Shown piece by piece: positions 5,005-12,935 of a DNA stretch of 40,842 nt (within the stretch, counting starts at the first letter, position 1; every line of letters starts with the position of its first letter). The stretch lies in assembly GCF_004212215.1 (NCBI RefSeq), contig NZ_QVFV01000014.1, forward strand, positions 1-40,842. Reading direction: 5' to 3'. The notes beneath the pieces are model-generated. The model searched no databases. It saw only the letters and a program-made list of their open reading frames with translations, and was not told the origin of the DNA. A program made the position numbers and the translations under genes. Source of the DNA: Leptolyngbya iicbica LK. GTDB taxonomy: Bacteria > Cyanobacteriota > Cyanobacteriia > Phormidesmidales > Phormidesmidaceae.

Positions 5005-5985
5005 TTGTTTCACGCCACGCTACACCAACTCAAAGTTTTTGAGGCAACCGCCCGTCACGGAAGCTTTACCCGCGCTGCTGAAGAGCTGTATCTGACTCAG
5101 CCCACCGTCTCGATTCAGGTTAAGCAACTAACGAAGGCGGTCGGACTGCCTCTATTTGAGCAAATTGGGAAGCGGCTATATCTCACTCAAGCTGGGCAGC
5201 AACTCCTTGATACCTGCCAGCGCGTCTTTGAGGGGCTGGAACAATTTGAGATGGCGATCGCTGATATCAAAGGCATGAAACAGGGCCAGCTCAAGATTGC
5301 CGTTATTACCACCGCCAAATATTTTGTGCCCCGCTTACTCGGGCCGTTTTGTCAGCGCTTCCCCGGCATCGACATCTCGCTCAAGGTGACCAACCACCAA
5401 AATATCCAAGAGCGCATGGCGAATAACGAAGATGACCTCTACATCATCAGCCAAACGCCCGAACAGCCGGATCTCAAAGTGCACCCCTTCCTCGAAAATC
5501 CGTTAGTGGTAATTGCGCCGAAAAATCATCCGCTGGTGGGCAAGAAAAATATTCCGATTCAAGAACTCAGTGGCGAACAGTTCATTATGCGGGAACCGGG
5601 ATCGGGTACCCGCCAGGCCGTGCAGTCCTTGTTTGACGAGCATGAAGTGGATGTGAAAGTGCGCCTAGAGCTGGGCAGCAACGAAGCGATTAAGCAAGCG
5701 ATCGCGGGTGGCCTGGGCATTTCAGTACTCTCTGTTCACACCATCATTTCCGAAGGCACGACGGGCGAGTTCGCCATTTTGGATGTCGAGCACTTTCCCA
5801 TCGAACGGCATTGGTATGTTGCGAGTTTGGCAGGTAAGCAACTGTCGGTGGTGGCCGACACCTTCCTCAACTATTTGCTGGAAGAAAGTCATCCGATGGC
5901 GCAAAAACTCTTACCAGACATCAAGCTCGCCACTGCCACCACGTTAGAAGAAACCGATCCTGAATTGGTGACCTCTAGCAAGTAG
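5005..5985 (+). CDS. LysR-type transcriptional regulator, RbcR/CmpR group
   Basis: A 326-residue LysR regulator with an N-terminal winged helix-turn-helix (about 5-64: 'LHQLKVFEATARHGSFTRAA', then 'LTQPTVSIQVKQLT') and a periplasmic-binding-protein-like effector domain. Phrases such as 'AVITTAKYFVPRLLGPFCQR', 'LKVTNH' and 'LELGSNEAIKQAIAGGLGIS' are characteristic of the cyanobacterial regulators RbcR and CmpR/CcmR. These control Rubisco or inorganic-carbon uptake genes in response to metabolites such as 2-phosphoglycolate. I cannot decide between the paralogues from sequence alone. The start is a TTG at 5005, preceded by GGAGA at 4991-4995, so this unusual start is supported. The gene is divergent from chrA and convergent with hoxH. 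Confidence 0.9.
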   Translation: MFHATLHQLKVFEATARHGSFTRAAEELYLTQPTVSIQVKQLTKAVGLPLFEQIGKRLYLTQAGQQLLDTCQRVFEGLEQFEMAIADIKGMKQGQLKIAVITTAKYFVPRLLGPFCQRFPGIDISLKVTNHQNIQERMANNEDDLYIISQTPEQPDLKVHPFLENPLVVIAPKNHPLVGKKNIPIQELSGEQFIMREPGSGTRQAVQSLFDEHEVDVKVRLELGSNEAIKQAIAGGLGISVLSVHTIISEGTTGEFAILDVEHFPIERHWYVASLAGKQLSVVADTFLNYLLEESHPMAQKLLPDIKLATATTLEETDPELVTSSK

Positions 5986-6120
5986 AGGCCCGGCACATTT
6001 GTCAGCTATTGGTCAGCAGGTAAATTCAGTGCCCGCAGCCTCTGCTCGCTATGTCTAGCGCATTGAGTCACCCAACCGCGATCGCTTCAGCAAAGGTACT
6101 TGTTCTTAGCAACCCCAATC

Positions 6121-6184
6121 GTTAGAGTTGGGCAGTGCCTAACCCCTACAATCCCTTGGCTATCTGGAGAGCTGATTTCAGCGG
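6121..6184. repeat. Dispersed two-hairpin repeat, copy 1
   Basis: This element has a hairpin around GTTGGGCAGTGCCTAAC and a second near-palindrome GCTGATTTCAGC. A clearly related copy lies at 33550-33614 with GGGTTTGGCAGTGCCAAACCC and the perfect palindrome GCTGATATCAGC. Both copies sit in the gap between two convergent genes, here between the LysR gene and hoxH. A terminator-like or MITE-like nature is inferred. Confidence 0.6.
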
Positions 6185-6190
6185 ACAGCC

Positions 6191-7618
6191 TTAATCACGC
6201 ACAACTTGACGGATGACCTCGCCCTGGGCGTTGTAGATTTGGATATCTAACGGCATTTGTCCCGCCGCGTGGGTCGAGCAAGAGAGACACGGGTCGTAAC
6301 AGCGAATTCCCGCCTCTACGCGATTCAAGAAGCCTTCTTGAATCTCTTCCCCGTGGATGTAGTGCTGGGCAATTTGCTTCACAGTTTTGTTCATCGCCAG
6401 GTTGTTGTTGCCGGTGGCGATAATCAAATTCACTTTTTCGAGCAGACCGTTTTCATCCACCTTGTAATGGTGGAACAGGGTACCACGCGGCGCTTCGCTG
6501 ACCCCGATCGCTTCCAACTCGTTGACCCCCGCCTCAGCCCGACAGCGATCGGACATCAGTTCAGGATCATCCATGTACTCTTCGATTTTTTCCAGGCAGG
6601 CCAGGATCTCAATGAGACGGGCGTAATGGTACAAGAACGACGAGGTGGGTATACCACCGGCATAATTGCGGAACTCCTGCAATTCGGCGTTGGCTTTCGG
6701 GGTGTCGATGTGGGTGCAGTTATTTAACCGGGCGAGTGGCCCCACCCGATACAACCCGTCGGGATACCCCAAGGCTTTGTAATAGGGAAATTTCAGATAC
6801 GACCAGTCTTCCACCGCTTCGCCCACGAAGTCGGCGTAGTCGTCTTCGCTGAGGTTATCCTGCACGATGTTGCCTTCGCTGTCGGTAAAGCGGAGATGGC
6901 CGTCGTAGTGCTCCCACGCGCCGCCTTTGCCCACCAAGCTCATGAACAGCGAGGGGAATTGACCGAAGACCTGGACCTCCTCTTTCATCGGGCCGTTGAT
7001 CAGCTGTTTGAAAATGTCCAGTCCTTTCTGAGCCGTTTCGAGGGATTCGGGGAGGCGCTCTAAAATCCAGGAACGACCTTCCGCAGAGAGGGGCGATCGC
7101 ACCCCGCCGGGGACGGTCCACGCGGCGTGAATCTTGCGGCCCCCGAGGATTTCAATCACCTGTTGACCAAATTGCCGCAGGCGAATGCCCGCGCGGGCCA
7201 GATCGGGATCCGCCGCGATCAGGCCGAAAACATTGCGCTTCGCGGGGTCACTGTCCCAACCCAGTAAAAAGTCAGGGCTGCTGAGGTGAAAAAAGGACAG
7301 CGCATGGGATTGCGTGATTTGCCCCAAATTCAGCAGCCGCCGCAATTTGTCTGCCGCCTTCGGAATTTTAACCGCGAGAATTTTGTCGCCGGTTTTAGCG
7401 GCACAAATCAGGTGACTCACCGGGCAAATGCCGCAAATGCGGGCAGTGATGCCTGCCATTTCCGTAAAGGGACGGCCTTCGCAAAATTTTTCGAACCCGC
7501 GATACTCCACCACGTGGAAACGGGTATCGGTGACCTCGCCCGCGTCATCCAACATGACGGAGATTTTGGCGTGGCCCTCAATGCGGGTGATGGGATCGAT
7601 AACGACAGTTTTAGACAT
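6191..7618 (-). CDS. hoxH: Bidirectional [NiFe]-hydrogenase large subunit HoxH
   Basis: This is the catalytic subunit of the cytoplasmic NAD(P)-linked hydrogenase and binds the NiFe(CN)2CO site. It has 475 residues, as expected. The two nickel-binding cysteine pairs are visible: '[10 protein letters not shown]' (Cys62, Cys65) and 'DPCLSCSTH' (Cys444, Cys447, His450). A 25-residue tail follows His450, the kind of C-terminal extension removed by the HoxW endopeptidase during maturation, so the translated product is a precursor. The N-terminal '[13 protein letters not shown]' is the standard large-subunit signature. It is the last gene of the hox operon. No hoxW or hyp maturation genes are in this window. 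Confidence 0.97.
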
Positions 7619-7699
7619 GGATGATGGCCTCCCTTCGACGGTCGGTGTGGGGGAATGGGTGGGGTCGGTAAACGTAGAACAAGGCTTAAGCGATCGCGG

Positions 7700-7748
7700 G
7701 ATCCCCCCTGCCCCCCTTCACAAGGGGGGTGGCGTAGCCGGGGGGATC
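7700..7748. repeat. G/C-run palindromic dispersed repeat between cp12 and hoxH
   Basis: C-rich runs (ATCCCCCC, CCCCCCTT) face complementary G-rich runs (AAGGGGGG, GGGGGGAT) around a short centre, forming a long imperfect hairpin. This is the common cyanobacterial interspersed-repeat style. It lies in the 186-base gap upstream of hoxH and would be transcribed within the operon, where it could affect mRNA folding, processing or stability. Confidence 0.7.
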
Positions 7749-7804
7749 GTCAGGATATACACACTCAGGCTGACGGTATATCCGCCGCCACCTCAAAGTG
7801 GAAC

Positions 7805-8038
7805 CTAATCCTCGTAGATGCGCGCTTCGGGAGCGTCAGGATTTTCTTCGAGGTATTTATCGAAACTGGTCTTTTCGGGATTTTGATGCTGGTGGGAAAC
7901 TTCCGCCTGCATTTCTTCGACAACGTCCCACGCAGCCGCGCAATCAGGCGAACTGTCGCCCTTTTCGGCGCAGATGGCTCGCGCATCGGCGCGCGCTTTC
8001 TCTAGCTTTTCGTGAAACTCTTTACTATCAACACTCAT
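7805..8038 (-). CDS. CP12 variant with only the N-terminal cysteine pair
   Basis: CP12 proteins are small, intrinsically disordered redox linkers that inactivate phosphoribulokinase and GAPDH in the dark. This 77-residue protein has the N-terminal pair Cys23/Cys33 ('[13 protein letters not shown]'), the core '[13 protein letters not shown]' and the C-terminal '[17 protein letters not shown]'. The two cysteines normally found in that C-terminal segment are replaced by Leu63 and Ala72. In canonical CP12 the C-terminal disulfide is used for GAPDH binding and the N-terminal one for PRK, so this form may contact PRK or another partner but not GAPDH in the usual way. The ATG at 8038 is preceded by GAGAGGAC. 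It lies 20 bases after hoxY and upstream of hoxH in the same orientation, which implies co-expression with the hydrogenase. Confidence 0.9.
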
Positions 8039-8058
8039 GAAATCAAGTCCTCTCGGTA

Positions 8059-8613
8059 CTATCCAAATTTGATCATCTCACGACCAACCATTTCTGGCGT
8101 CTTACCTTGCAGCAATGGCTCCAAAGTGGCGCGAATGCGGTCAGCCGAAGGGGGACACCCCGGCATAAAGATATCAATCGGAATGACCTCATGCACAGGG
8201 AGCACCCGGTCCAACAATTCGGGCACAATGCCCGGGGCATTGGGAAAATGCGGGTTTTCGTCTGCCAGCTCAATGTAGCCGCGTTCGAGCACCGGTTCGG
8301 CGGTTTTGTTGCCCATCATGTTGCGCATGGCGGGCACGTTAGCCGTTACCGCGCAGTCCCCAAAGGAGATCAGGGTTTTGGTTTTGCGGCGAATTTCCAG
8401 GGCGAGCTCTAGATTTTCTTCGTTGGCGATCGCCCCTTCCACCAGGCAGACATCGACGCCTTCGGGATACTCCTTCAGGTCAGTACCCACGGGGCTGAAC
8501 ACCACGTCCACGAGCCCTGCCAGGTCGATCAAAAACTCGTCCAAATCGAGAAAGGACATATGGCAACCGGAGCAACCCGCCAGCCAAACCGTCGCAAACT
8601 TTATCTTGTCCAT
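8059..8613 (-). CDS. hoxY: Bidirectional [NiFe]-hydrogenase small subunit HoxY
   Basis: The small subunit carries the [4Fe-4S] cluster proximal to the NiFe site and pairs with HoxH. The protein of 184 residues begins 'MDKIKFATVWLAGCSGCHMS', with cluster cysteines Cys14 and Cys17, then 'FGDCAVTANVP' (Cys87) and 'MPGCPPSADRI' (Cys153). I chose the ATG at 8613 because it is preceded by GGGAGA at proper spacing and the family begins here; the open frame extends 38 codons further upstream but overlaps hoxU. The 13-base overlap with hoxU suggests translational coupling. There is no Tat signal, consistent with a soluble cytoplasmic enzyme. Confidence 0.96.
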   Translation of the reverse strand: MDKIKFATVWLAGCSGCHMSFLDLDEFLIDLAGLVDVVFSPVGTDLKEYPEGVDVCLVEGAIANEENLELALEIRRKTKTLISFGDCAVTANVPAMRNMMGNKTAEPVLERGYIELADENPHFPNAPGIVPELLDRVLPVHEVIPIDIFMPGCPPSADRIRATLEPLLQGKTPEMVGREMIKFG

Positions 8614-9317
8614 TGTTGCTTCTCCCGTGCTGTGGTCAGGAAGGCCATCTTGCCGCGATCGCCCTCTTTTTCGCCCGTGGTTTCGCCCTGGTGGAAAATG
8701 GCTCCCGTGGGGCAGGCATCGACGCATTTGCCGCAGGAGGTGCAGGCATCCACTTCGCCCCAGGGCTGATCGAGCCCCGCCACAATAAAGCAGTCAGGCC
8801 CGCGACTGCCGACATCCCAGACGTGCGCCCCTTCCACTTCGTCGCAGACTCGGACGCAGCGAGTACACATGATGCAGCGGTTGTGGTCGATGCCAAATTG
8901 GGAGTGAGACAGGTCGCAGCCGCGATCGGGGAAGCGGTAGCTAAAGCGAGAATGATCCATCCCCACTTCCACCGCCACATCCTGCAATTCGCAGTTGCCG
9001 TTCGCCACGCAGATGGAACAAACGTGATTCCCTTCCGCGAAAATTAGCTCCACCGTCATCCGGCGATAATTTTGCAACTTTTCGGTCTGAGTGTGAATCA
9101 CCATGCCTTCGGCGGCGGCGGTGACACAGGCAGGCAATAGCTTCGGCGTGCCCTCGGCTTCGACAATGCAGAGGCGACAAGCCCCAACATCATGCACCCC
9201 TTCCATGTGGCACAGCGTCGGAATGGGAACGCCCGCTTCTTTGGCCGCATCCAAAATCGTTTTGCCCGCCTCAATGGCGATCTCTTTGCCGTCAATTGTG
9301 AGGGTATTAACTGCCAT
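8601..9317 (-). CDS. hoxU: Hydrogenase diaphorase subunit HoxU
   Basis: HoxU wires electrons between the HoxF/HoxE diaphorase and the HoxYH hydrogenase through several Fe-S clusters and resembles the N-terminus of complex I NuoG. The 238-residue protein shows a plant-ferredoxin-like [2Fe-2S] site (Cys36, Cys47, Cys50, Cys64), the 'NHVCSICVANGNCELQ' motif, and two [4Fe-4S] ferredoxin motifs, 'CIMCTRCVRVC' and 'CTSCGKCVDACPTG'. It lies 23 bases downstream of hoxF and overlaps hoxY by 13 bases. All expected cluster ligands seem intact. Confidence 0.96.
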   Translation of the reverse strand: MAVNTLTIDGKEIAIEAGKTILDAAKEAGVPIPTLCHMEGVHDVGACRLCIVEAEGTPKLLPACVTAAAEGMVIHTQTEKLQNYRRMTVELIFAEGNHVCSICVANGNCELQDVAVEVGMDHSRFSYRFPDRGCDLSHSQFGIDHNRCIMCTRCVRVCDEVEGAHVWDVGSRGPDCFIVAGLDQPWGEVDACTSCGKCVDACPTGAIFHQGETTGEKEGDRGKMAFLTTAREKQQWTR

Positions 9318-9340
9318 AATTCATATCTCCATTGAGTCGG

Positions 9341-10978
9341 CTATACAGACACCGGCTTGGCTTCGGCGGCGTGCCCATTCAGGTAGGCAGGCTGCACCAA
9401 CAGCGAGGTGTACTCTTCGGGGAAATAGCGCAGAGTGCTCAGCACCGGGTTCGGGGCGGTCATGCCCAGGCCGCAGAGGCTGGTTTCCTGCACCATGTAA
9501 GAAAGCTGCTTTAACTGCTCCAGGTCGGCTTCTGTTGCCTGCCCTTTGAGAATCTTGGTCAACAGGTCGTAAAGCTGCACCGTGCCCGTGCGGCAGGGCA
9601 CACACTTGCCACAGGTTTCCTCCCGGCAAAACTCCATGTAGAAGTGGGCGATTTCGACCATGCTGGTGTTTTGATCCATCACCACCATGCCGCCCGAGCC
9701 CATCATGGAGCCCACCGCTTTTAGCGAGTCGTAATCTACGGGCGTGTCGAGCAGATCTTTGGGAATGCAGCCGCCAGAGGGGCCACCCGTTTGCACCGCT
9801 TTGACTTCGCCATCGGGGACGCCGCCACCCATCTCTTCCACAATCGTGCGGAGGGTGATGCCCATTGGCACTTCGATCAGGCCGTTATTGCGGATGTTGC
9901 CCGTGAGGGCGAAGATTTTGGTGCCTTTGCTGTTCTCGGTGCCGATGCTGGCATACCATTCCGCCCCTTGCTTGATGATGTGGGCAATGTTGGCAAAGGA
10001 TTCCACGTTGTTGATCAGCGTCGGACAGTCATACAGCCCGGACTGAGCGGGATACGGCGGTCGCGGCACCGGATTCCCCCGCGCCCCTTCGATGGATTGA
10101 ATCAGGGCCGTTTCTTCGCCACAGACGAAGGCCCCGGCCCCGATACGAATATCGACTTTGAAATCAAAGGGGGAATCGAAGATCTGGCTACCCATCAAAC
10201 CGTACTTTTTCGCCTGCTTGATGGCTTTTTGTAAGCGGGAAATGGCGAGGGGATATTCGGCCCGGACGTAGACGTAGCCGTGGTCAGCCCCGACAGCATA
10301 GCCCGCGATCGCCATCCCTTCCAGCACTAAATGGGGATCGCTCTCCAATACGCTGCGATCCATAAACGCGCCGGGGTCGCCCTCGTCGCCGTTGCAGATA
10401 ATGTACTTCTGGCCTGCTGGCATTTTGGCGACGGTGGCCCACTTCAATCCGGTGGGATAGCCACCCCCACCCCGACCCCGCAGACCGCTGTCAGACACTT
10501 CCTTCACCACATCGGCGGGCGTCATGTCATGCACGACTTTGTACAGCGATTCGTAGCCCCCGACCGCGATATATTCTTCAATGCTTTCGGGGTCGATTTT
10601 GCCACTGTGCTTGCGCACCACCGGGGTTTGATAGGCAAAAAACGGATGCTCCGGATCGAGCTGCTCGGCCTCGGTGCTGCCTGCTCCTAAAGTCGTCGCC
10701 ACGAGGCTCTCGGCTTCTTCGGGTTTCACCTGGGCGTACAGTTGATTGTCGGGATCAACCTGCACTAGCGGTCCTTGGCCGCAAAAGCCCATACAGCCCA
10801 CGCTGACGACTTCAAGGCGATCGCCACAATCATGCTCTTTGACCGCTGCCTTGAGATTGTTATAAACCTCATTGGCGCTGGCCGCACGACAACCCGTCGA
10901 GGTGCAGCAGTGCAGTCGGATCGGGCGTTGACGCTCTTTTTCTTGTTGGGCAACTTCTCTGAGTTCGGTTATGTCCAT
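9341..10978 (-). CDS. hoxF: Hydrogenase diaphorase subunit HoxF (NAD(P)H/FMN binding)
   Basis: HoxF is the flavin- and pyridine-nucleotide-binding subunit that exchanges electrons with NAD(P)H. The 545-residue protein has an N-terminal thioredoxin-like [2Fe-2S] domain ('HCCTSTGCRAA' and 'VGCMGFCGQGP'), then the NuoF-like core with 'GLRGRGGGGYPTGLKW' (about 165-180) for nucleotide and FMN binding. A C-terminal [4Fe-4S] site follows with 'ETCGKCVPCRTG' and a distal 'SLCGLG' cysteine. Its position after hoxE matches the standard hoxEFUYH order, but a 297-base gap of hairpin repeats separates the two. Confidence 0.97.
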   Translation of the reverse strand: MDITELREVAQQEKERQRPIRLHCCTSTGCRAASANEVYNNLKAAVKEHDCGDRLEVVSVGCMGFCGQGPLVQVDPDNQLYAQVKPEEAESLVATTLGAGSTEAEQLDPEHPFFAYQTPVVRKHSGKIDPESIEEYIAVGGYESLYKVVHDMTPADVVKEVSDSGLRGRGGGGYPTGLKWATVAKMPAGQKYIICNGDEGDPGAFMDRSVLESDPHLVLEGMAIAGYAVGADHGYVYVRAEYPLAISRLQKAIKQAKKYGLMGSQIFDSPFDFKVDIRIGAGAFVCGEETALIQSIEGARGNPVPRPPYPAQSGLYDCPTLINNVESFANIAHIIKQGAEWYASIGTENSKGTKIFALTGNIRNNGLIEVPMGITLRTIVEEMGGGVPDGEVKAVQTGGPSGGCIPKDLLDTPVDYDSLKAVGSMMGSGGMVVMDQNTSMVEIAHFYMEFCREETCGKCVPCRTGTVQLYDLLTKILKGQATEADLEQLKQLSYMVQETSLCGLGMTAPNPVLSTLRYFPEEYTSLLVQPAYLNGHAAEAKPVSV

Positions 10979-11060
10979 ATGCCCGTCTCCTGTATGGGTC
11001 TGGAATCAGTCAGGAATGGATGGTTGTGATGGAATGCGAGAACAAGGTATTTGGGAAAGA

Positions 11061-11233
11061 ACCTCACCTAGCCTCTCCTTCGCAAGGAGAGGAACCGAAG
11101 TTGGGAACCTCACCTAGCCTCTCCTTGATAAGGGGAGGGACCGGATTGCGGTTGGAAGAATCTGGTTATGTCCCTATCAGGATTGGACTCAACCTCTCCT
11201 TGATAAGGAGAGGTGCCGCAGGCGGTGAGGTCA
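11061..11233. repeat. Array of three CCTCTCCTT hairpins between hoxE and hoxF
   Basis: Three stem-loops with arms CCTCTCCTT and AAGGAGAGG are seen at 11072-11092, 11118-11138 (one mismatch, AAGGGGAGG) and 11193-11213. The outer words CACCTAG and GGTGAGG frame them, so the ends can also pair. This is a typical dispersed cyanobacterial repeat. It fills most of the only long gap in the hox operon and will be transcribed if hoxE and hoxF share a message. Confidence 0.75.
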
Positions 11234-11275
11234 TCAGCACCTTCAGCCACCCACCAATCCACCTTGCAGTGAGTC

Positions 11276-11821
11276 TCAAGCTCGCAATTCGTTGATTTTG
11301 GCGATCGCCCCTTCAGCTTGCTGCTTACCCGCGACTTCACCGTCATAAACAATCGCCGGAGCAATGCCACAAGCGCCAATACAGCGAGCCGACATCAGCG
11401 AAATTTTGCCATCCGCCGTAGTTTCGCCCTCTTCGATGCCGAGTTCGGCCTTCAGGGCCTCCATAATTTTGCCTGCCCCTTTGACATAGCAAGCCGTGCC
11501 CGTACAGACGACACAGTTGTGTTCGCCATTGGGCTTCAGGCTAAAGAGATGGTAAAACGTTGCCACGCCATACACACGGCTGAGGGGTAATTTCAGACCG
11601 TGCGCGACGTGTACCAGCACGTCTTCATCCAAATAGCCAAACGCCTCTTGGGCCGCGTGGAGCACTTCGATCAGCGCATCTGGTTGAAACTGATTGCGCT
11701 TCATCGTCACATCCAGACGTTTGAAGCGGAGATCGCCTTGGTCTTTCTTTTTGTCCTTAGGGACAACTCCCTCGGCTTGGGCCAGCGTTTCGGTCTTCGA
11801 GACAGCGGCAGTAGTGGGCAT
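11276..11821 (-). CDS. hoxE: Hydrogenase diaphorase subunit HoxE
   Basis: HoxE is a NuoE-like [2Fe-2S] subunit of the diaphorase module and the first gene of the operon. It has 181 residues. After a lysine-rich N-terminal extension the conserved domain runs from 'FQPDALIEVLHAAQEAFGYL' through 'VYGVATFYHLFSLKP'. The cluster cysteines lie in 'VVCTGTACYVKGA' and 'SARCIGACGIAPA'. The operon promoter should lie in the ~300 bases upstream, which contain AT-rich patches around 11935-12000, but no binding site for LexA or AbrB-type regulators can be asserted from reading alone. Confidence 0.95.
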   Translation of the reverse strand: MPTTAAVSKTETLAQAEGVVPKDKKKDQGDLRFKRLDVTMKRNQFQPDALIEVLHAAQEAFGYLDEDVLVHVAHGLKLPLSRVYGVATFYHLFSLKPNGEHNCVVCTGTACYVKGAGKIMEALKAELGIEEGETTADGKISLMSARCIGACGIAPAIVYDGEVAGKQQAEGAIAKINELRA

Positions 11822-12049
11822 AGCAAACCCTCACTTGAGCATCAGCCCGGTCGGCCCAACTTCACGAGACCGACGCAGTTACCTACCGTGGTATCCGACA
11901 AGATTGATCCCCGGTCAAAGCCACAGACATTTTTAACGTTCGCGCACGGAAAAGTTACGCTTCTTAGAAAATATATTCGTCGCAGTTTAAGGAACTTTAG
12001 CTGCGGCGGTTTCGGCCAAGCAGCCATTACCGTCGGCTTACAACGGCAC

Positions 12050-12075
12050 AAAAAAAGAGGGGCGATCGCCCCTCT
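12050..12075 (-). terminator. Rho-independent terminator downstream of the desaturase gene
   Basis: A perfect 20-base palindrome AGAGGGGCGATCGCCCCTCT (12056-12075) with a HIP1 core is followed, in the minus-strand direction, by a run of seven T residues (read as A at 12050-12056 on plus). It lies about 40 bases past the desaturase stop codon. Confidence 0.8.
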
Positions 12076-12116
12076 CCTCGACAAAAGCTAATTGTTAGCG
12101 CATCAACGAATGTCGT

Positions 12117-12935
12117 TTACGACTCCACCAGCTTGACCTTGCGCGCCAATCCCAGCGCTTGCAAGACGCGAATGTGTATCCAGGTGATATCAAATTCGTA
12201 CCATTTCAAACCGTGCCGTGCCGAATGCTGGTAAGCGTGGTGATTATTGTGCCAACCTTCGCCATAGGTGACCAATGCCACCCACCAGCAATTCGTCGAC
12301 GTATCGTCAGTGTCATAGGTGCGGTAGCCAAACTTGTGCGTAGCGCTATTCACAAACCAGGTGCAGTGGTACACCACCACCAAGCGCACAAAAATGCCCC
12401 AAATTACGAATGGCCAGCCGCCCAATAAGTAAAGGATGACGCCCAAGGGCACCTGCATGAGCAAGAAGTATTTCTCAAAAAACTTGTAAACCGGATCATC
12501 CGCAATGTCGCGAGTGAATTTATCGATTTCCGCCTTGGCTGGCACGTCTCGCAGCAGCCATCCCATGTGGCTCCACCAAAAGCCTTTCCCGGCATCGTGG
12601 TGGTCATTAGGCTTATCAGAATAACGATGATGATGACGGTGTAGACCAATCCACACAATTGGCCCGTGCTGGCAAGCTAAGGTGCCACAAACCACAAAGA
12701 AATATTCGAGCCACTTGGGCACTTCAAAACTTTTGTGCGCAATCAGACGGTGCCACCCCAGGGTAATGCCCAGGCAACCGGTGATCCAGTGTAAGACTAG
12801 CGCCACGCCAACGGCGGCCCAAGTCGTATTTCCAGGAATAAAAGCTAATAAAGCTAGCCCATGAACGGCCACCATAAATAAGGCGGTAGGCCAATCAATA
12901 GCGGGTTTTTCTAAATTTCTTATAGCTGTGGTCAT
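12117..12935 (-). CDS. desC: Acyl-lipid/acyl-CoA delta-9-type fatty acid desaturase
   Basis: A membrane di-iron desaturase of 272 residues that introduces the first double bond into membrane-lipid acyl chains using ferredoxin electrons. The three histidine boxes are complete: 'HRLIAH' (62-67), 'HRHHH' (99-103) and 'HNNHH' (229-233, within 'YGEGWHNNHHAYQ'). Hydrophobic stretches lie at about 18-58, 78-95 and 155-195. The ATG at 12935 gives the usual DesC length; a GTG 33 bases upstream is in frame but less likely. The gene is divergent from the methionine gamma-lyase-like gene across 76 bases. DesC genes are typically cold- or light-responsive. Assignment to delta-9 rests on overall resemblance. 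Confidence 0.92.
   Translation of the reverse strand: MTTAIRNLEKPAIDWPTALFMVAVHGLALLAFIPGNTTWAAVGVALVLHWITGCLGITLGWHRLIAHKSFEVPKWLEYFFVVCGTLACQHGPIVWIGLHRHHHRYSDKPNDHHDAGKGFWWSHMGWLLRDVPAKAEIDKFTRDIADDPVYKFFEKYFLLMQVPLGVILYLLGGWPFVIWGIFVRLVVVYHCTWFVNSATHKFGYRTYDTDDTSTNCWWVALVTYGEGWHNNHHAYQHSARHGLKWYEFDITWIHIRVLQALGLARKVKLVES

Follow-up and report, generated by a model that had tools for sequence, protein, structure and literature searches.

CP12 is the classic switch that turns off carbon fixation in the dark; the Hox hydrogenase has been described as a sink or valve for electrons. A 2018 study by Hackenberg reportedly found genes of CBS-CP12, in which CP12 is fused to CBS domains, in distinct gene neighbourhoods, several of them unrelated to photosynthesis, so that the presence of the fusion form in hox operons may well have been published already.

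Two stand-alone CP12 classes are close to the locus described here. CP12-N keeps only the N-terminal cysteine pair, as does the protein of our window (the whole stretch of 40,842 nucleotides that was analysed), and CP12-0 has no cysteines, as in a sub-branch of its relatives (PMC3906501). The classes are those of Stanley, Raines and Kerfeld 2013, and a legend in PMC3906501 names Cyanothece for a CP12-N and Leptolyngbya for a CP12-0. That 2014 review states that CP12 had been shown to have no role beyond the Calvin cycle up to then and that the different forms had been given no unique function. Gene neighbourhood is not treated in its accessible part, and its main text holds no word beginning with 'hydrogen-'. 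Canonical CP12 shares with the window protein the family, the helical hairpin and the AWDxVEE core, but it has a C-terminal cysteine pair that the window protein lacks.

The two cysteine pairs have been probed by mutation. GAPDH binding is lost when Cys4 is changed to Ser, and binding of phosphoribulokinase (PRK) is lost when Cys1 is changed to Ser (PMC9514657). The CP12 of Synechococcus 7942 is able to form the complex although it is without the N-terminal pair, and the lack of the N-terminal disulfide weakens PRK binding but does not abolish it (PMC9406205). A CBS-CP12 inhibits PRK in an AMP-dependent manner without a ternary complex (PMC9623430; also PMC9406205).

The hox operon of Synechocystis contains the extra ORFs sll1222, ssl2420 and sll1225, the last two between hoxY and hoxH (PMC3933540). 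Ssl3364 is named the unique CP12 of that organism (PMC9514657), so ssl2420 is not regarded as a CP12. In the literature searched, part of which was accessible, no report of CP12 in a hox operon was found.

A CP12-N gene inside the hox operon

The window carries the gene order hoxE-hoxF-hoxU-hoxY-cp12-hoxH, with the whole set on the minus strand (Table 1). The hoxY stop is 20 nt from the cp12 ATG, and the cp12 stop is 186 nt from the hoxH ATG. The placement of cp12 between the two hydrogenase genes, proposed in a first-pass annotation, is thereby confirmed, as the gene shares their strand and is tightly spaced between them, and the same order recurs in relatives.

Table 1 Features of the hox region in the window.
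Feature	Coordinates	Strand	Evidence
hoxE	11276..11821	-	NF005747 HoxE, 267 bits (cut-off 224)
hoxF, diaphorase subunit (NuoF-like)	9341..10978	-	PF01512 + PF10589
hoxU, diaphorase subunit	8601..9317	-	NF005745 HoxU, 407.7 bits (cut-off 333)
hoxY, hydrogenase small subunit	8059..8616	-	PF01058 1.8e-29; position beside hoxU
hoxY-cp12 gap, 20 nt, with ribosome-binding-like GAGAGGA	8039..8058	-	
cp12, class CP12-N, 77-residue product	7805..8038	-	PF02672 1.9e-27; PDB 5nmu, 6gfo
cp12-hoxH spacer, G/C-rich palindrome around 7711-7729	7619..7804	-	
hoxH, hydrogenase large subunit	6191..7618	-	PF00374 2.6e-29
LysR regulator, RbcR/CmpR kind, convergent with hoxH	5005..5985	+	PDB 5y2v, 5z49

The CP12 family match covers residues 9-76 of the product with 96.3 bits against a curated cut-off of 22.7, and NCBIfam profiles gave no family at 1e-5. 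By phmmer, the closest PDB sequences are the CBS-CP12 5nmu (5.3e-23) and the cyanobacterial CP12 6gfo (2.7e-18). The core reads AWDVVEEM, in which M replaces the final L of AWD_VEEL. Residues A36, W37, D38, V40, E41 and E42 are invariant in all 36 aligned CP12 rows, as are Y75, P67 and E71. The protein has Cys23 and Cys33, whereas the sites of the two C-terminal cysteines of 5nmu and 6gfo are taken by Leu63 and Ala72; the description of cysteines and core in the first-pass annotation is correct.

Having the core and the N-terminal pair only, the stand-alone protein falls into CP12-N under the scheme of PMC3906501. It shares the N-terminal pair of the canonical (N/C) class but not the C-terminal CxxxPxxxxC pair, and it is not a CBS-CP12, being the CP12 domain alone. 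The window's hox operon thus truly carries a CP12-N gene, an additional member of a published class.

An AlphaFold2 model made with the 36-row alignment has helices at residues 5-26, 31-50 and 58-65, with a mean pLDDT of 77 and a pTM of 0.49; block means are 75-88 for residues 11-50 and 66 for residues 1-10. Among solved structures it comes closest to the CP12 portion of 5npl (Z 6.9, rmsd 1.5, 49 aligned), and full CP12 chains match more loosely. Because helical bundles readily reach middling Z, the identification as CP12 is carried by the sequence match.

Co-transcription of cp12 with hoxY and hoxH appears likely from the layout. A consensus scan of 7500-8300 gave no sigma-70-type promoter and no minus-strand terminator-like site, which is weak evidence. 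Shuffled sequences fold as well as the spacer between cp12 and hoxH (z -0.64), the palindrome in that spacer has a 17-base core that is single-copy in the genome, and an Rfam search of 5900-12200 returned 0 matches at gathering scores. The neighbouring LysR gene matches 5y2v, 'Rubisco operon transcriptional regulator' (5e-142), and 5z49, CmpR (1e-79). The adjoining of this carbon-metabolism regulator may be coincidence, with hoxH and the LysR gene lying tail to tail.

The source genome has four CP12 domains in all, the hox-borne copy included. The others are a canonical four-cysteine CP12 (L001), a CBS-CP12-type fusion that ends in WCSG and is unlinked to hox (L003, at G000:C1:218428), and a divergent stand-alone CP12 without the N-terminal pair (L004). 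Thus, the hox-borne protein is not the sole CP12 of the cell.

CP12 domains enter hox operons repeatedly

A HoxH-like protein (E ≤ 1e-80) was found in 88 of 386 sampled genomes, the window's included. The window HoxH is 62-96% identical to its matches in the phylum and order samples, except for one at 38% (G007). Among the 87 other hoxH neighbourhoods surveyed, both hoxY and hoxH were seen in 75 and not in the remaining 12. Of the 87, 30 have a CP12 domain in the slot between hoxY and hoxH, or 30 of the 75 with both genes. The occupants are 28 intact CBS-CP12, one truncated CBS-CP12 (L128) and one stand-alone CP12 (L016); all 28 were called by length and CBS strings, and Pfam on three of them showed both domains. 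In two more neighbourhoods, CP12 lies downstream of hoxH (L029, L076). Most slot occupants (24/30) belong to family code f7, which has 29 genomes with hoxH, and the others to f6, f14 (two), f19, f23 and f29. No CP12 was seen in the slot in 45 of the 75 neighbourhoods with both genes; the slot in G276 is without one. The CBS-CP12 kind that ends in WCSG is hox-linked in four genomes (L015, L079, L107, L120).

In Anabaena PCC 7120, alr0765, numbered after hoxY (alr0764), is given as a hypothetical protein under bidirectional hydrogenase (PMC4915528), and this listing fits the slot pattern of CBS-CP12.

About 0.0006 CP12 genes per genome would be expected by chance in one given slot (mean of 2.95 CP12 matches over 63 genomes, 5000 genes assumed). 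Given this expectation, the recurrence of the order in relatives and the filling of the slot with CP12-domain genes in other families, the hoxY-cp12-hoxH arrangement is not chance.

A CP12 tree was built from 71 rows and 67 columns, with cysteine columns excluded and rows more than 90% alike thinned; the program flagged the small number of columns and a bootstrap that had not settled. The window protein and its relatives form one group (support 96/96), hereafter the clade. The f7-type hox CBS-CP12, including one contig-edge row, form a separate group (100/99), and three WCSG-type hox CBS-CP12 form a third (97/94). A single origin of hox linkage, which would place hox-linked rows and unlinked clade members together, was rejected with an AU p of 1.6e-22, for groups named after the tree was seen. 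As judged from this sequence tree, CP12-domain genes are shown to have entered the slot between hoxY and hoxH several times within the phylum. A tree in which the clade and the f7-type hox CBS-CP12 are joined was marginally rejected (p 0.039), and grouping of the clade with canonical CP12 has support of 46/68 over the 67 columns. The clade may descend from a CBS-CP12 that shed its CBS part.

The first-pass annotation had suggested a link to hydrogen metabolism and a comparison of hox operons across cyanobacteria. Hox linkage does extend beyond this genome, as seen in the 30 of 87 neighbourhoods and the rejected single origin, and a CP12 between hoxY and hoxH recurs; the clade gene itself is beside hoxH in 11 of 34 genomes, as described below. 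The earlier interpretation is thus supported in part.

Cysteine loss is not tied to hox linkage

Cysteines were counted with identical domains merged. Duplicates (L002, L013, L179, L185, L182, L050, L051), the truncated L128 and the different-kind L213 were left out, and L208 and L209 were unused.

Among 33 distinct clade rows, none has either C-terminal cysteine. The N-terminal pair is kept in nine, and none of the four cysteine sites is filled in the other 24. Seven of the 11 linked rows and 17 of the 22 unlinked ones are cysteine-free; cysteine loss tracks one sub-branch (support 99/96), not hox linkage. Over the same 33 rows the A-WD-VEEM-AE-SHQHQ core is at least 90% conserved, and none of the four cysteine sites is uniform. 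The cysteine-free sub-branch contains L008, L009, L010 and other genomes of genus code g145 among L177-L205, and is strongly conserved still. Two stand-alone CP12 of other families, L016 and L029, have Cys3 only, the former lying between hoxY and hoxH and the latter after hoxH.

Cys4 is missing in all 42 hox-linked CP12 domains examined. It is also missing in 51 of the 52 CBS-CP12 domains examined: none of the 28 hox-linked domains has it, nor does the single domain downstream of hoxH, and among the 23 others it is present in one. Cys4 is present in 17 of 17 other stand-alone CP12, a non-random sample of which 13 were hand-picked and the rest came with other loci. A tie between C-terminal cysteine loss and hox linkage is ruled out, since Cys4 is nearly absent from CBS-CP12 regardless of linkage. 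The lack of GAPDH-binding cysteines, which had been singled out in the window protein, holds as a reading of the sequence but not as a special trait, CP12-N being a published class and the same loss being so general in CBS-CP12.

CBS-CP12 thus includes the closest solved sequence to the window protein (5nmu), and the two share the missing Cys4 (51 of 52 CBS-CP12 domains) and the slot (29 of 87 neighbourhoods, one truncated). CBS-CP12 differs in its CBS domains, which the window protein lacks, and 5nmu has both C-terminal cysteines.

Clade members are found with and without hydrogenase

A protein search of GTDB species contigs gave eight loci: six clade members (L005-L010), the CBS-CP12 L011, and L012, which was set aside as its match spans 20 residues only. 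The hoxY-cp12-hoxH arrangement is present in L005, L006 and L010, not in L007, L008 and L009.

The window's order was then covered with 63 genomes, at E ≤ 1e-29 for clade CP12 and E ≤ 1e-80 for hoxH. Clade CP12 was found in 34 of them and hoxH in 26. The clade gene is beside hoxH in 11 of its 34 genomes, equal to 11 of the 17 that have hoxH. Ten of these are linked on one contig (G000, G387, G388, G411, G412, G414, G419, G423, G424, G443). G422 was counted as linked across contigs, its cp12 match lying 60 nt from a contig end and its hoxH starting 33 nt into another. In six clade genomes hoxH lies elsewhere (G407, G421, G426, G427, G432, G433). That the clade gene is always a hox gene in relatives is ruled out by these counts.

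At the same threshold no hoxH was detected in the remaining 17 clade genomes, 16 of which are at least 92% complete, with G413 at 86%. When these 17 and two controls were searched for hoxF, both controls had it, 16 of the 17 did not, and G413 gave a short stretch resembling hoxF. Retention of cp12 is not dependent on the hydrogenase in these genomes. Over the 63 genomes, the clade gene is present in 17 of 26 with hoxH and 17 of 37 without it, which is no significant association (Fisher p 0.20); this fits independence but plain hitchhiking as well.

In nine of the 11 linked members the hoxY-cp12 gap is 20-24 nt, and it is 157 nt in L005 and 50 nt in L010. The neighbours of unlinked cp12 in g145, named by eye, are trpB-like, DUF29-like, ribonuclease-D-like and RNA-binding-like genes, and no Calvin-cycle gene was recognised among them. 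The clade gene recurs in at least two places, the hox slot and this trpB-rnD-rbp site.

A hox-less locus and selection on cp12

Locus L196 lies in G391, a genome of the same genus that is 99% complete. It has a GDP-fucose-synthase-like gene (by eye), chrA, LysR and cp12 in the window's order, and hoxH is missing between LysR and cp12. No hoxY, hoxU, hoxF or hoxE was seen within 6 kb upstream, and neither hoxH nor hoxF was found genome-wide. The simplest reading is that the hox genes were lost from around cp12, which is favoured because the hoxY-cp12-hoxH order is common to three genus codes (g1, g145, g149). Alternatively, they may have been gained around cp12.

The cp12 frame is intact in G391; of six comparisons, two are free of synonymous saturation and give dN/dS of 0.069 and 0.038. 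For the window cp12, dN/dS is 0.05 against L005 and 0.07 against L006. Pairs without hoxH and hoxF give 0.007 (L180/L184), 0 (L190/L191) and 0.035 (L193/L199), and linked pairs 0.018 to 0.10 (seven of eight pairs with finite dS). Purifying selection on clade cp12 is strong with or without hoxH. Because cp12 is intact and selected in hox-less genomes, the protein is maintained for more than the hydrogenase alone, and the hydrogenase is probably not its sole partner. The earlier proposal of direct Hox regulation therefore fails as the only job of clade cp12, given the 17 of 34 genomes without detected hoxH and the intact gene of L196.

Possible function of the hox-borne CP12

The reading that we tentatively place first is that a CP12-N is carried in the hox operon and co-expressed with the hydrogenase, while the protein would act elsewhere, most likely on PRK. 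Such a PRK-directed role without GAPDH is drawn from the findings of PMC9514657, PMC9406205 and PMC9623430. Contact with PRK would be made through the two-helix AWDxVEE hairpin, which a Cys23-Cys33 disulfide could lock, and the tail, without a CxxxPxxxxC loop, would not bind GAPDH tightly. When the hydrogenase is made in the dark, at low oxygen or in an over-reduced state, a PRK brake would be produced alongside, adding to the four-cysteine CP12 L001. The protein of the cysteine-free sub-branch would be a redox-independent binder, or it may not bind PRK, given the loss seen in the Cys1 mutant (PMC9514657).

Rather unlikely, though next in standing, is that this is a passenger, a conserved CP12 paralogue that serves some general purpose and changes its place in the genome, its hox position being functionally meaningless. 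Such movement would suit the 23 of 34 clade genomes in which cp12 stands apart from hoxH or hoxH went undetected, the recurring locations (at least two) and the lack of significant association with hoxH presence; it sits poorly with the tight 20-24 nt gap of the linked members and with the taking of the slot by several other CP12 lineages.

That the hairpin binds a Hox subunit and tunes its activity or assembly by redox state seems improbable to us. The repeated arrival of CP12 in the hox slot would also fit a direct hydrogenase partner, the hoxY-hoxH placement recurs in six other family codes, and the absence of Cys4 from all 42 hox-linked domains makes a GAPDH role unlikely. However, the clade gene is retained in 17 genomes without detected hoxH, 16 of them also without hoxF and L196 among them; disulfide control is ruled out in the seven of 11 linked clade rows that are cysteine-free, and in 45 of 75 neighbourhoods the slot is without CP12. 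Least probable by a clear step is that CP12 is made along with the oxygen-sensitive hydrogenase as a disordered chaperone or stress protein. For this speak the anti-stress role of CP12 reviewed in PMC9406205 and a small, charged protein with a partly confident model, but the conserved AWD-VEE core and dN/dS of about 0 to 0.1 in unsaturated pairs suggest a specific partner.

Returning to PRK, a broader version of that role across cyanobacteria is doubtful. CP12 modules without the GAPDH loop would have entered hox operons repeatedly, so that whenever hydrogen metabolism is on PRK would be throttled with no need for the disulfide signal of darkness. CO2 fixation and H2 turnover would then be traded against each other in a hard-wired way, with some versions fully redox-blind. 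A CP12 made from the hox operon would directly wire carbon fixation to hydrogen metabolism at the genetic level, and an unnoticed PRK brake inside the operon would matter when the operon is moved or overexpressed in hydrogen engineering. The linked, unlinked, hydrogenase-less and cysteine-free relatives form a natural series for CP12 function without a redox switch; the most useful facts here are the hydrogenase-less relatives that keep cp12 and the cysteine-free sub-branch.

Other observations at hox loci

Two hox clusters are apparently decaying. In L128 (G377, 6550-6957) the CBS-CP12 frame stops short of the AWD core, with both hoxF and hoxH broken up; in L129 (G237) hoxH is split over two frames. 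G421, which keeps a window-type cp12 elsewhere, has a more distant hoxH, and the gene immediately upstream of it encodes a divergent protein that resembles CBS-CP12 but has no typical CP12 tail (L213, 5476-6045, minus strand). In the window itself, two neighbouring ORFs at the contig end (59-2010, minus strand) have N-termini that are TIR-like by eye. In two genomes (L073, L077) the place between hoxY and hoxH is held by a large protein, roughly 1080 residues long, whose NPPY motif is methyltransferase-like.
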